This document shows positions 16,239 to 21,700 of a DNA stretch of 64,000 nt, piece by piece. Position 1 is the stretch's first letter. Every line of letters starts with the position of its first letter. Location of the stretch: the NCBI GenBank assembly GCA_949286835.1, contig CASEDP010000011.1:15750-79749 (forward strand). The letters run 5' to 3'. Made by a program: the position numbers and the translations under genes. The DNA is from an uncultured Clostridia bacterium. GTDB lineage: Bacteria > Bacillota > Clostridia > Christensenellales > Borkfalkiaceae. Under the pieces are notes generated by a model. It ran no database searches. It saw nothing but the letters and a program-made list of their open reading frames with translations, and was not told the origin of the DNA.

Positions 16239-16591
16239 TTATATAGGTGCGGGCGGGCACTTACAGCCTGCCGACCGCGGCTTGCCAAGATTTTTCGGTT
16301 ATGGCAATGCTGCGCAAATCATAGTTTTTTTTAACCGAATACATATTTGGCTTAAGTCGTTCATCGGCTTTAACTCAGGGCGCCGACAACACGCGTGTTG
16401 TCGGCGCCCTTTTTCTGCCCTTTTTCACCTCTTAACTCAATCCCAAAAGCTAAACTCAAACCAACTCTAAAACCAACCCAAAAACCAACCCCGAAACCAA
16501 CCCGTGAACCAACCCCGAAACCAACCCGTGAACCAACCCCGAAACCAACCCCGAAACCAACCCGTGAACCAACCCCGAAACCAACCTGTGA
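16239..16591. other. Intergenic gap between engB and the surface-protein reading frame
   Basis: About 350 bp without a convincing gene. It holds a GC-rich patch just after engB (16248-16283), an AT-rich stretch, a perfect terminator palindrome (16377-16414) and most of a 12-bp tandem repeat array (about 16458-16624). Neither a promoter nor a signal-peptide-coding start for the downstream frame is visible. Confidence 0.6.
16377..16414 (+). terminator. Strong terminator palindrome, copy 1
   Basis: Perfect 17-bp inverted repeat, arms 16377-16393 and 16394-16410, containing GGCGCCGACAACAC and its complement, followed by a T run to 16414. Nearly the same palindrome recurs at 20367-20406, on the other side of the surface-protein gene. 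Confidence 0.8.
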
Positions 16592-16624
16592 ACCAACCCC
16601 GAAACAGACCCAAAAACCAACCCC
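16458..16624 (+). repeat. 12-bp tandem repeat array
   Basis: About 13 degenerate copies of a 12-bp unit alternating AACCAACCCCGA and AACCAACCCGTG. The unit length preserves reading frame: one frame reads PTPK/PTRE repeats and another NQPR/NQPV repeats. Unlike CRISPR there are no spacers. It lies at the point where the downstream surface-protein frame loses its 5' end (in-frame TGA at 16589-16591). Confidence 0.85.
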
Positions 16625-19600
16625 CCGAACCGACCTTCAGCCAGCCGCCGAAACCGCCCCGAAAGCGAGCTCTACGAAGTCACCGAAAACGACGGCGGAA
16701 AGGATGTCGGAAGCTATACCGTCACATTAAAGCTCGTCAATGCGGACGACTATCTGTGGTATGACGGCTCTGTCGTCGACAGTGCGGAATATATCTGCCG
16801 CTGGACGATAACTCAGGCGGTCTACGGCACCGATTACACCGTCACCAATCCCGTCTATGACGGCGAATACGTCTACGACAATACGGGCAAGCTTCCCACG
16901 CAGCACGCAGTGATAACGTTTAACGGCGGTTCTCAGATTTCGGGAGGAGATTATTACGATCTTCTCATCGCGCCCGTGCGCTACGCATATGCAAAGGTAA
17001 ACAGCGTCGACGACATACCTCAACCTGCGGACTTCGTATATGACAGACCCGTCGCGGCGGGTATCTATAAGGTGGTCGCGTTTGTTCCCGCAACCGTCAA
17101 CTATACCGAAGGTTATAACCTTGAGGATATAGCTGTTCTCATAATTCAGAAGGCGGATTATGATATGAGCGGCATAAGCCTTGCGGACGGCGAAGAGTTC
17201 ACGTTCGACGGCACGGCGCACAGTCCTCTTCTCGAGGGAACGCTTCCCGCAGGTCTCGACAATGTGCGCGCAGAGATAGAAGGGTATGTCTACGCGCTGG
17301 CGGACGGCACCGCGGTAGAGGGTGCGATAAGCGCGGGCACGTACACGGTAACGGTCACGTTCAGGACAACCAGCCCCAACTATAACGTGCCTCAGCCCAT
17401 CTCCGCACAGTTCGTAATCAATGCCAGAAAGCTCACTTCGGACGACGTGCATTGGGAGAGCGGAGAGTTCACCTATAACGGTACCAACCAGTCCGCAAGC
17501 GTAAAGGCATATTACCTCGACGCAGGCGGAGAGAGGGTATATCTCGAACTCAGCATAACCAGCTTCACTCCCGCAGGAGGCGCAGGCGCGTCGACGCTTT
17601 CCGAACAGTTTGTCAATGCCGGCACGTATGTATTCACAATCAGCAGTGTCGACAATCCCGACTACGTGTTCGAGAGCGCGCAGACGCTCACCCTCGTAAT
17701 GGCGCAGAGCAGCATAACCGTACAGCTCGGCACCATAGAGGGCGTCTACAGCGGCGCCGAACCCACGGACGTTGCGGATATCGCCGTGACGGCCGTCGGC
17801 AACTACTATGACGACGACCTCGGCATCGCCTTCGCAAAGCAGAAGGGCACATCTGTCGGCAGCTATGCGGTGACAATCGACGGCTGGAACAACTATAACT
17901 ACATAATAACCAATGCCGAGTATGCGGTCGGAACTTATAAGATAGTTCCCAAGACGCTTACAGTCGGTATCTCGGTAAATGCAGACCTCACCTACAACAA
18001 TTCTTCTAAAGATGCAACCTGGAGCATAGACGCCGCTCAGTTCGTACAGGGCGAAGGTATAGGTGATGTGGCGGTCGCCTTCGTATATGAAGGTACGGCA
18101 AACGACGGAACGACCTGGCACAGCACTCAGGCGCCCGTCAAGGCAGGCAACTATACGGTGCGTGCCGTGCTCACGGCGGCAAACTATGATATGGCGTCCG
18201 CCGAACCCGTGGCGTTCACAATCGCCCGCGCAAAGGTGGCTATGCCCACGCTCGCAGACAGCGGCAAGCAGACCGTAACCAGCGTAGAGACGGGAGAGGT
18301 GCAGACGGTAGTCCTCAACGGCTTCGACTCCCGCGTGATGGGCGTCACCAGCAATGCGCTTTCCGGTCTCGTCGTAGACGACAAGGGCAATTTCTCGCTC
18401 ACCGCAAGCGCAATCGGCGAATATTCCGTGACGGTATATCTCAAGGATACCGACAACTACGAGTGGTCGGATATCGAGGCGACTGAACCAGGCGCGCCCG
18501 CAGTGACGGACATTGCGCTCACCTGGACGGTCGAGGAGGCAATACAGTCCATACTCTGGCTCATCATCACTCTGGCTTGTCTGTTGGCGGTCGAGATAGT
18601 CTTTCTCATAGTCGCTGTGCGCCGCAGAAAGACGGCTGACGGTCCCGATGATGACGGTGCGCCCTTCAAGGACGATACCGTCGGCGGCGGTTCGGCAGAC
18701 GAACAGCCCGAAGAAGAGGCAACTTCGGAGGATAACCCCGAAGCGCAGCCCGAAAATGAAGATACATCCGAAGGCGAGCCGAAAGACGGCTCGCCAAAGG
18801 GTGGCAACAAGATGTATTCGTTTGCGCCGCTCGGCTTACTGTTGGCGGTGCCTATGGGGCAGATAGTTGCGGCGTCGGTGCTCGGCGCGGCGTGCGCGGT
18901 TGTGGGCGTATGTATAATCGTCGCGCTGGTGCGTTCCCGCAAGCGCGCAGAGCAGCAGGAAGAAACGCCAGAAGAGCAGCCGGCAATCGTGTTCGAGCCT
19001 ATCGAACAGCCCGTCGAGGAACCCGTTGAGGAGCCTGCGGAAGAACCCGCCGAAGAACCTGCAGAAGAACCTGCGGAAGAATCCGCCGAAGAACCCGTCG
19101 AGGAACCCGTCGAGGAACCTGCCGAAGAGCCTGCGGAAGAACACGTCGAGGAACCTGCCGAGGAACCCGTCGAAGAGCCTGCTCCCGCAGAAGAACCCGT
19201 TGAAGAGCCCGAGCCCCTGCCCGCAGTTGTCGAAGAGGAGATTGCCGCGGCGGAGGAAGAGCCCGAAGAAGAGGACGACGATGACGACGATGAACCTCTG
19301 TCCTTCGAAGAGGAGGATATCGACGTGGTCATTCCGGAGGGAACGGACGGCATACGCAAGATATACATTCGCTACGAATTCAGCTTCCGCGCCCGCCTCA
19401 TTCAGGCGTCGCCGGAAGTCAAGGCGCGCTATATCGAATTTATCAACGAGGCGGCAGCCTACGAAGGGCTTAAGTCCAACATAAGCTGGAAGCAGGAGCG
19501 CCTCTACAAGGGCAGAAATACTGCGGCATACCTGCTGTTCAAGGGCAAAAAGCTGTGCGTTGCGTTCGCGCTCGACCCCAAGGACTATGCCGAAACAAAA

Positions 19601-20317
19601 TACCGCGGCATAGACGTGTCGGAGGTAAAGCGCTTTGCAAGGACGCCGCTGCTTCTCAAGATAACCTCTCAGCGCCGACTGCGCTATGCAAAGCATCTGC
19701 TTGCCGACGTATGCGCAAAATACGGTCTCAAAAAGGGCGAAGTGCCCAAGAACGACATAATAATCGAGTACCGCACCACCGAAGAACTTATCGCCGACAA
19801 GCTTGTAAGGGTGTTCACCAGCGGCGAAATCGACGAAAATACCCAGGTGGAAAAGGTGGATATCCTGTCGCTCATACGCGACCAGATAACTATGAAGGAG
19901 GCTAGGACGGCGCTCTCCGACGAGAGTGCGGAAGCGCTTGTCGAGGACGTCGACATTCCCGAGGAGCTTCCTGCGGAGCCCGAAGAGCAGGAAGAACTGC
20001 CCGTATCCGAGGACGAAGAGCCCAAGCCGCGCAAGGTTGCCGAAAAGAAGCCCGTTGCAATCTACAAGGCGGGCAAGAGCAAACGCGGCACAATCAATAT
20101 CGACACGCTGTCCAAGGCATTCGCGCCGAACGACGTCATCAATATAGAGGTGCTCAAAGAAAGGGGAATGTTGCCCAAGAAGGTAATGGAATATAAGGTG
20201 CTCGCGCGCGGAATGCTCAACAAGCCGCTCATCGTCGAGGCGAACGAGTTCTCGCTCGACGCCGTCAAGATGATAGTGCTTACGGGCGGCAAAGTGCGCC
20301 GAATACACAGGCTGTAA
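16592..20317 (+). CDS. Surface/membrane protein: MBG-like repeats, two membrane regions, acidic EEP repeats and uL15-like C-terminal domain; 5' end missing
   Basis: The frame is open from 16592 to the TAA at 20317, but its first possible start is a GTG at 16910, inside a domain, and no signal peptide is seen. The true N terminus therefore seems lost or frameshifted at the repeat array. Counting from 16910 (1135 residues): several MBG/YDG-like beta modules of about 80-90 residues with recurring GTYTVTV / AGNYTVRA ends (1-540), a membrane helix followed by RRRK (about 544-574), an acidic linker, a second hydrophobic region (634-680) followed by RSRKR, an acidic EEP[AV] repeat (about 700-777), an unassigned globular domain (about 812-965) and a C-terminal segment (about 1060-1135) resembling the end of ribosomal protein uL15 (NIDTL..., [21 protein letters not shown]). 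Charge pattern predicts repeats outside and the uL15-like part inside. Confidence 0.75.
19009..19245 (+). repeat. EEPA/EEPV coding repeat
   Basis: Degenerate tandem repeat of roughly 12 nt (GAAGAACCTGCG / GAGGAACCCGTC) encoding about 18 EEP[AV] units. It forms an acidic, proline-rich, probably extended cytoplasmic linker in the uL15-like protein. Confidence 0.85.
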
Positions 20318-20622: not shown

Positions 20623-21624
20623 TTATAGCTTTTTGCCGCACTCGGGGCAGAACTTTGCACTCGGGGCGAGTTCCGCTCCGCACTCGGGGCAGGTGCGCTT
20701 TACGGTAGAGCCGCATTCGGGGCAGAATTTTGCGTTTGCGGGCAGGGTTGCTCCGCACGCGGAGCATCTGTTTCCGCCACTCTGCGAAAAGCCCTCGCCT
20801 ATCTCCTTGCCTATGTCCGCGCCTAGCCCCAGCCCTATGCCCGCGCCCACGACCGAGCCCGCCATTCCGGGGTTTTTCGCCGCCTCTACAATGGCGTCGG
20901 CGCGCGCTATGCGGGTATAGATGTCGGCGTTGTCGCGCAGCAGACCGAGGCGAGCGTTCTCGTCAATCGCCTTTTCCACCTCGCTCGGCAGCGAAATGCT
21001 CTCAATGTTGAACGACGTCAGCTCCAGCCCGAACTTTAAAAAGCTGTCAGCCATATTTTTCAGCACGGCAGCCGAAAGTTCCATAAGGTTTGCGGAGAGG
21101 TCGGCAATGTCCGTATTGCTCGAACCTATCGCGTCGGACATGCCCATCACAAGCAGAGAGCGGATATAGTCCTCGACGTCCGCGGTGGTAAAGGAGCGGC
21201 GTGTGCCCGAAAGCTCTTTTAATAGTTTTGCGGCGTTGTTGACCTTAAAGGAATATGTGCCGTAGCCGCGCACCCTCACGGCGCCGAGCCTGGCGTCCTT
21301 TATTATTACGGGCGTCGCCGTGCCCCACTTGTGCTTGACGAACTGTTTTGTGGAGATGAAGTATATGTCCGACTTGAAGGGCGACTCGAAGGCGTACGCC
21401 CAGTGCAAAAGTGCGGTGAGTATGGGCAGGGTATCGGTGTTCAGCGTGTACATTCCGGGCGTAAATATGTCGGCTATGTTGCCCTTATCGCAGAAAACGC
21501 AGACCTGACCTTCGCGCACGGTGAGCTTGGTGCCCCACTTGACAACGCTCTTGCGGGTGTCGAATTTATGCAATATTTCATTCGGCGCTTCTTCCGTCCA
21601 TTGGACGATGTCTAATAAAGACAT
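20623..21624 (-). CDS. SPFH domain protein with C-terminal double zinc ribbon
   Basis: 333 residues from the ATG at 21624, which has a perfect GGAGGTA ribosome site; upstream in-frame starts lie in the promoter region. Residues about 10-250 form an SPFH/Band 7-like domain of the YdjI/'virion core' type (start SLLDIVQWTEEAPNEILHKF). A glycine-rich segment (about 255-285) follows. The end has four CxxC knuckles (CSACG, CPECG, CPECG, CPECG), i.e. two zinc ribbons. Likely a membrane-associated scaffold; the partner is unknown. It is divergent from another zinc-ribbon protein. Confidence 0.85.
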   Translation of the reverse strand: MSLLDIVQWTEEAPNEILHKFDTRKSVVKWGTKLTVREGQVCVFCDKGNIADIFTPGMYTLNTDTLPILTALLHWAYAFESPFKSDIYFISTKQFVKHKWGTATPVIIKDARLGAVRVRGYGTYSFKVNNAAKLLKELSGTRRSFTTADVEDYIRSLLVMGMSDAIGSSNTDIADLSANLMELSAAVLKNMADSFLKFGLELTSFNIESISLPSEVEKAIDENARLGLLRDNADIYTRIARADAIVEAAKNPGMAGSVVGAGIGLGLGADIGKEIGEGFSQSGGNRCSACGATLPANAKFCPECGSTVKRTCPECGAELAPSAKFCPECGKKL

Positions 21625-21671
21625 AAAAAATACCTCCGTGCCGCGCATAGCGGCAATTACTTTACATCCCG

Positions 21672-21700
21672 ATTTTACCATAAAGGCGCGGGGCTGTCAA
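21672..21700 (-). promoter_or_regulatory. Promoter of the SPFH gene
   Basis: Minus strand TTGACA (21700-21695), 17-bp spacer, TAAAAT (21677-21672). The roughly 45-nt leader contains a small GCCGC/GCGGC hairpin. Confidence 0.75.

Follow-up and report, generated by a model that had tools for sequence, protein, structure and literature searches.

A domain related to the C-terminal domain of ribosomal protein uL15, lacking the ribosomal RNA (rRNA) arm, is the constant element at the C-terminus of a protein family whose members are mostly membrane-anchored and, in part of the family, are fused to or paired with large surface-type frames. We describe it from a 64,000-nucleotide stretch of DNA, here the window, from an uncultured Clostridia bacterium of the Borkfalkiaceae (assembly GCA_949286835.1, contig CASEDP010000011.1, positions 15,750 to 79,749). 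There, a frame at 16592–20317 of 1241 amino acids (aa) plus stop codon, without a start codon at its 5' end, encodes a 5'-truncated member of the family, as read from the sequence and the list of open reading frames (ORFs). Window features lie on the forward strand unless stated otherwise. With moderate confidence we read the domain, here called the tail, as a uL15 relative that is likely off the ribosome, a predicted cytoplasmic docking domain tying membrane-anchored, often surface-type proteins to an internal partner.

The tail is a relative of uL15

The last 75 residues of the frame (20084–20314, the extreme C-terminus) match the uL15 profile PF00828 with 50.1 bits (E = 3.8e-13), passing the curated cut-off of 21.5, and also match solved uL15 chains by sequence (best E = 8.1e-06). 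In a structure comparison their tertiary structure was the same as that of the C-terminal domain of uL15. An earlier note, made from the DNA letters, had proposed this relationship, and profile and structure both support it. A chance resemblance or mis-annotation, with a tail unrelated to uL15, could appeal to the NCBIfam rplO equivalog model, whose cut-off of 77.95 was missed (32.1 bits for the whole ORF, 37.8 bits for the last 100 aa), but it is refuted by the PF00828 match and the structure comparison and we consider it negligible.

The tail differs, however, from uL15 itself (rplO; PF00828, TIGR01071) in having no N-terminal rRNA arm, in charge reversal at positions 305 and 308 and in an A.KM[IL] helix; tails are also fused to membrane proteins and encoded outside the ribosomal operon. 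On contig C4 the source genome has a normal rplO, which scores 160.3 bits with NCBIfam and has secY and ribosomal genes nearby, as judged by reading the neighbouring frames. It also has three tailed proteins: the window frame, which unlike rplO sits after engB and outside the ribosomal operon, a 454-aa protein with a transmembrane (TM) segment on C17 and a 403-aa protein without one on C10. Tails (83/83) and reference rplO sequences (31/31; the 30 best from 46 genomes of the class plus the genome's own rplO) fall in separate groups with a support of 0.973. The rRNA-arm motif G.KGQ occurred in 26 of 31 rplO and in none of 189 tailed entries (161 distinct tails). Using the residue numbering of the fragment 19325–20314, position 305 is K/R in 26/31 rplO and E in 64/83 tails, position 308 is K/R in 28/31 and D/E in 70/83, position 316 is K in 30/31 and M in 83/83, and position 318 is E in 27/31 and V/L in 72/83, respectively. 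We infer that the rRNA-facing side was given up and that a new, more hydrophobic contact lies on the last helix.

Literature searches directed at this family or at uL15 found no description of tailed proteins. PF00828 serves as a universal or single-copy marker in passages of PMC10102025 and PMC4303638; in the papers that name it, it appears as a ribosomal marker or in ribosomal-protein lists, and a passage of PMC10931766 names uL15 once, as a member of the spc operon. Against this marker use stand the four PF00828 matches in the source genome and 14 in G141, a genome of the same order. Three homologues (P0024, P0048, P0050) bear the NCBI name "uL15 family ribosomal protein", a phrase absent from the literature searched, among entries from Clostridia metagenome-assembled genomes; the name implies a ribosomal protein, whereas the actual proteins are tailed and membrane-anchored or contain the globular domain described below.

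Family plan and topology

In the window protein the tail follows a basic globular domain (gl; 19352–19816) modelled by AF2 with a pLDDT of 94, for which a fold search suggests a YjbR/YdhG/MotA-C-like fold, and a helical motif, V..EA....SDE.A..LvE (19874–19954), which accompanies the tail. Identity between gl and YjbR, YdhG (DUF1801), MotA-CTD or frataxin-type chains in the fold search with the model was 8–15%, and 3% in 1kaf. No Pfam family matched the window gl at E ≤ 10, and among 94 gl members the Pfam matches were weak (DUF5655 in three, best E = 0.015; YjbR in three, best E = 0.044). The net charge of gl has a median of +10 (range −1 to +20, 83 rows). The helical motif scored above the best shuffled control in 159 of 189 entries, though 83 of the scored rows built the profile; among 71 database proteins 42 exceeded that control, and the misses printed looked similar by eye.

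A protein search found 126 homologues of this gl-tail region among 7993 scored candidates, and scanning named genomes yielded 338 confirmed stretches, the best 80 of which were kept as loci. Record titles of these loci are mostly of uncultured Clostridia (including Borkfalkia, Gallimonas and Protoclostridium) and Anaeroplasmataceae/Mollicutes. As to the conserved domain order, for which the earlier note had proposed a survey of homologues, one or two gl domains are followed by the tail in 80/80 loci, where the tail is present by construction because the search patterns were derived from it. The tail match stops 3–14 residues short of the frame end in all 82 frames (80 loci and the two paralogues of the source genome). 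The minimal form, of about 380 aa, has one N-terminal TM segment, an acidic stretch, gl, the motif and the tail. A hydrophobic segment lies ahead of gl in 73 of 76 frames uncut by a contig edge, and K+R exceeds D+E after it in 55 of these 73; from such positive residues the tail is predicted to face the cytoplasm. The earlier suggestion of a uL15-like cytoplasmic end is supported as to the place of the tail at the predicted cytoplasmic end of membrane-anchored proteins, by a simple topology reading over the 80 loci. Two tailed proteins without a TM segment (L054, L077) begin with a short peptide that is hydrophobic and basic (e.g. MCFFKLFAKKKK) and may be an amphipathic membrane anchor.

Fusion to, or pairing with, large frames was seen in part of the family. 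The module lies inside a frame of at least 1000 aa in 13/80 loci, while a frame of at least 500 aa ends no more than 100 bp upstream in 12/80 and a smaller frame does so in 17/80; 4/80 lie at contig edges. By eye, nine of these 12 upstream frames of at least 500 aa close with a TM segment, the exceptions being L007, L034 and L043. In L008 and L009 the upstream surface-type gene closes with its own TM segment and RRKGRN just before the tailed gene, and in the window and L006 the parts split over these two genes are joined in a single frame. One frame of 5284 aa contains everything and another giant reaches 2974 aa. Giants of about 3000 aa with signal-like N-termini retain motif and tail without gl, hence motif and tail are the constant part of the family.

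A constant tail on divergent proteins

Genome G141 is about 1.6 Mb in size, and of its 14 PF00828 matches one is rplO and 13 are not. Five of the 13 tailed proteins were read, each over 1700–2533 aa with one cut at the N-terminus. Their last 270 residues share 88–96% identity in all ten pairs, and the part from residue 61 to 420 residues before the end, mostly ectodomain but including TM segments and part of the coiled coil, shares 31–44%. G141 tails diverge from the remainder of the family. The coiled-coil stretches of these loci (L227–L231) are near-identical, and at least three carry DVDDLAQRV-type repeats which by eye resemble those of the protein upstream of RNase J described below.

The tail is kept by selection, because dN/dS in close pairs is low: approximately 0.01–0.14 in pairs of at least 90% identity, for example 0.012/0.378 in L006/L007, 0.019/0.651 in L008/L009 and 0.025/0.184 in L026/L027. 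The pairs compared were equal-length domains of 75–99.9% identity, several of them with saturated dS (−1).

C-terminal sorting and anchoring modules such as PEP-CTERM and LPXTG are likewise constant on otherwise divergent proteins. The tail differs in being a folded 75-residue domain, predicted to be cytoplasmic, and not a short sorting signal. It is not known to have a sorting enzyme.

Docking, ribosome tethering or RNA processing

If the tail is a docking domain, it would serve as a shared plug that docks surface-type proteins to a partner inside the cell. The changed last helix (S..A-V-K-M-I-x-L-T-G-G) may form a new protein contact, perhaps first with the preceding helical motif, and the acidic repeat may be a spacer holding the basic gl domain and the tail off the membrane. 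More tentatively, a constant gl-uL15 module on many divergent ectodomains, in one gene or a gene pair and with 13 copies in the single 1.6-Mb G141 genome, could be a surface-to-cytoplasm coupling system in gut Clostridia and Mollicutes. If correct, a protein fold among the most conserved of all would have been reused off the ribosome as a surface-protein adaptor, which would explain the database entries now labelled as ribosomal proteins. The giant surface proteins of uncultured gut bacteria would also become more approachable, and it could be tested in a simple way how far a fold of this kind can shift from RNA to protein binding.

A number of observations weigh against docking. K305, K308 and K316 are putative rRNA contacts of uL15, judged from their conservation, and the tails have gained R295 and still carry K291, K300, A313, I317 and the terminal GG. 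Tails are no less positively charged (median net charge +3) than rplO C-domains (+1), and the PROSITE L15 signature fits 61/83 tails against 21/31 rplO. The tail signature is not universal, with A-V-K-M-I in two of the 12 G141 tails read and A-V-K-L-I in the rest, and all 12 have lost the L-A-R-G block. Eighteen of 73 frames have no positive excess after the membrane segment, and 34 of 80 genes lack a same-strand frame that ends in the 100 bp before them. Direct-coupling analysis of motif against tail (159 sequences, Neff 103) picked up mainly artefacts of gaps and invariant columns and was not used. Finally, two features point to RNA: the basic charge of gl, and a soluble coiled-coil protein with gl at its end whose gene, in 16 of 19 loci including the source genome, lies directly upstream of RNase J in the same orientation.

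Ribosome or RNA tethering is the main rival to docking. As a membrane ribosome dock, the tail would still bind the large subunit or an assembly intermediate, with gl adding an RNA contact, so that ribosomes making giant exported proteins are held at the membrane. The retained uL15 fold, the strongly positive median charge of gl, the fusion or close pairing of tailed genes with large surface-type frames in 25/80 loci and the frames of 2974 and 5284 aa are consistent with such a role. However, the arm motif is absent in 189/189 entries, most tails have acidic residues at 305 and 308, helix residues are now hydrophobic, giants without gl exist and the uL15 site on the mature ribosome is already taken. 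We regard a ribosome dock as unlikely. Mba1/mL45, the mitochondrial inner-membrane ribosome receptors, are comparable as a ribosomal-protein relationship at the membrane, but their fold and lineage differ from those of the tail.

A membrane-tethered RNA-processing scaffold, with gl binding RNA or an RNase J-associated complex and the tail making an accessory protein contact inside it, is less likely still. The coiled-coil gl protein directly upstream of RNase J and the basic charge of gl speak for it. The 19 RNase J loci were chosen from family-survey matches and not at random, and under a stricter re-run (E ≤ 1e-20) the arrangement was seen in 11 of them; the NCBIfam assignment as RNase J was made on a fragment, which scored 398.8 bits against a cut-off of 400. 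Against a scaffold, no RNase J match was found in the 80 tailed loci L005–L084 or in L091–L113, some tailed giants have no gl, and the relatives of gl (YjbR, YdhG and frataxin-type domains) do not all bind nucleic acids. The coiled-coil gl protein (L087/L132 on C10 of the source genome; L114–L131) carries DYDALAEKI-type repeats.

The earlier note had offered ribosome or RNA contact, or a recycled binding fold, as readings of the tail. For the tail itself contact with ribosome or RNA is not supported, given the missing arm and the mostly acidic 305 and 308, but the neighbouring, strongly basic gl and the gl protein upstream of RNase J leave it some likelihood. Of the two, a recycled binding fold fits better.

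The window copy

All parts named by the earlier note are present in the window frame: beta repeats, two hydrophobic segments followed by positive residues, an EEP repeat, a globular domain and the uL15-like last 75 residues. The beta-repeat ectodomain remnant (16658–18529), assigned by blastn homology to L006 and by PF18676, has a single weak MBG_2 match which misses the curated cut-off (23 against 25 bits); relatives P0006 and P0007 score 45.2 and 25.7 bits. A Kyte-Doolittle scan placed the hydrophobic segments at residues 647–676 and 743–780. The first, a predicted TM segment, lies in 18530–18631 and is followed by RRRK, and the second, possibly a hairpin, runs from Met741 in 18812–18946 and is followed by RSRKR. 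Next comes the acidic EEP repeat with a DDDDDD spacer (18971–19342, from the sequence and a repeat scan), of which the EEP tandem repeat itself spans 19010–19182.

The 5' end of this copy was not remarked on in the earlier note. The frame emerges from a 12-bp tandem repeat array (16458–16624, no strand assigned; 13.9 copies, Tandem Repeats Finder and sequence) and begins right after an in-frame TGA (16589–16591) within it, the earliest listed start being a GTG at 16910 that would give 1135 aa. Nucleotide homology to L006 starts at about 16658, with L006 extending further upstream, and no signal peptide is encoded by the frame. The TGA, the late homology and the missing signal peptide indicate a copy that is 5'-truncated or mis-joined in assembly. 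We read it as displaced and 5'-truncated; display of its ectodomain is doubtful and probably does not take place. It could yield a product of about 500 aa from Met741 (18812), the point where by eye the stand-alone relative P0002 begins, with the layout of the stand-alone relatives.

For this copy only, we give even odds to a rival reading in which it is either a decaying fragment, displaced and with no function at the surface, or the product of an assembly join across the repeat array. In favour of this, the frame has neither start codon nor signal peptide and emerges from the 12-bp repeat, in the sister genomes G269 and G696 an SPFH-like gene comes after Lon-EngB with no tailed gene between, and the near-identical P0007, on a 3761-base contig, ends early by eye after a frame change in gl. 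On the other hand, P0007 begins in the same kind of repeat, which makes a one-off mis-assembly less likely, and the window frame stays open to the last tail residue with the tail intact. P0007 reads its 12-bp-type repeat in a different frame. In the window, the intergenic array of AAACCAACCCCG repeats (16458–16624) connects the truncated gene with a terminator-like GC-rich hairpin and T run, read from the sequence between engB and the frame (16378–16414).

Gene neighbourhood

Upstream of the window frame NCBIfam named ClpX, Lon and YsxC/EngB. EngB is a 50S assembly GTPase whose gene lies ahead of the tailed one not only in the window but also in five Anaeroplasmataceae/Mollicutes loci (L023, L024, L025, L028, L029), at 28–195 bp in four of these and 1897 bp in L029. 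This neighbourhood was rejected as evidence for a ribosome link, because no gl, tail or ectodomain match turned up around EngB in 19 further loci of the genus, with about 1.5 kb of flank, or in six longer stretches, G269 and G696 have no tailed gene there and the remaining cases are one related lineage. The next gene downstream in the window (20623–21681, reverse strand) is SPFH-like, a name taken from reading its sequence, with two zinc ribbons at its end and no NCBIfam match; it follows EngB in the two sister genomes.

Distribution

Within the same taxonomic family, 111 of 121 genomes match at E ≤ 1e-8 (84 of the 89 of good quality), 109 of the 111 at E-values of at most 2e-24, lower than any observed for rplO. 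Since rplO reaches E = 1e-19 with this profile, G240 (1e-9) and G276 (1e-11) may hold rplO only. In the class survey two of 391 genomes matched at E ≤ 1e-65. The phylum survey (E ≤ 1e-15) gave eight matches in 398 genomes, with a true tailed protein in one; the other seven were ordinary rplO, in frames of 148–174 aa matching the tail columns alone. A gl-gl-tail frame of 1457 aa, open at the 5' edge, was also found on an IMG/VR contig called viral (L196), one of 14 pattern matches.
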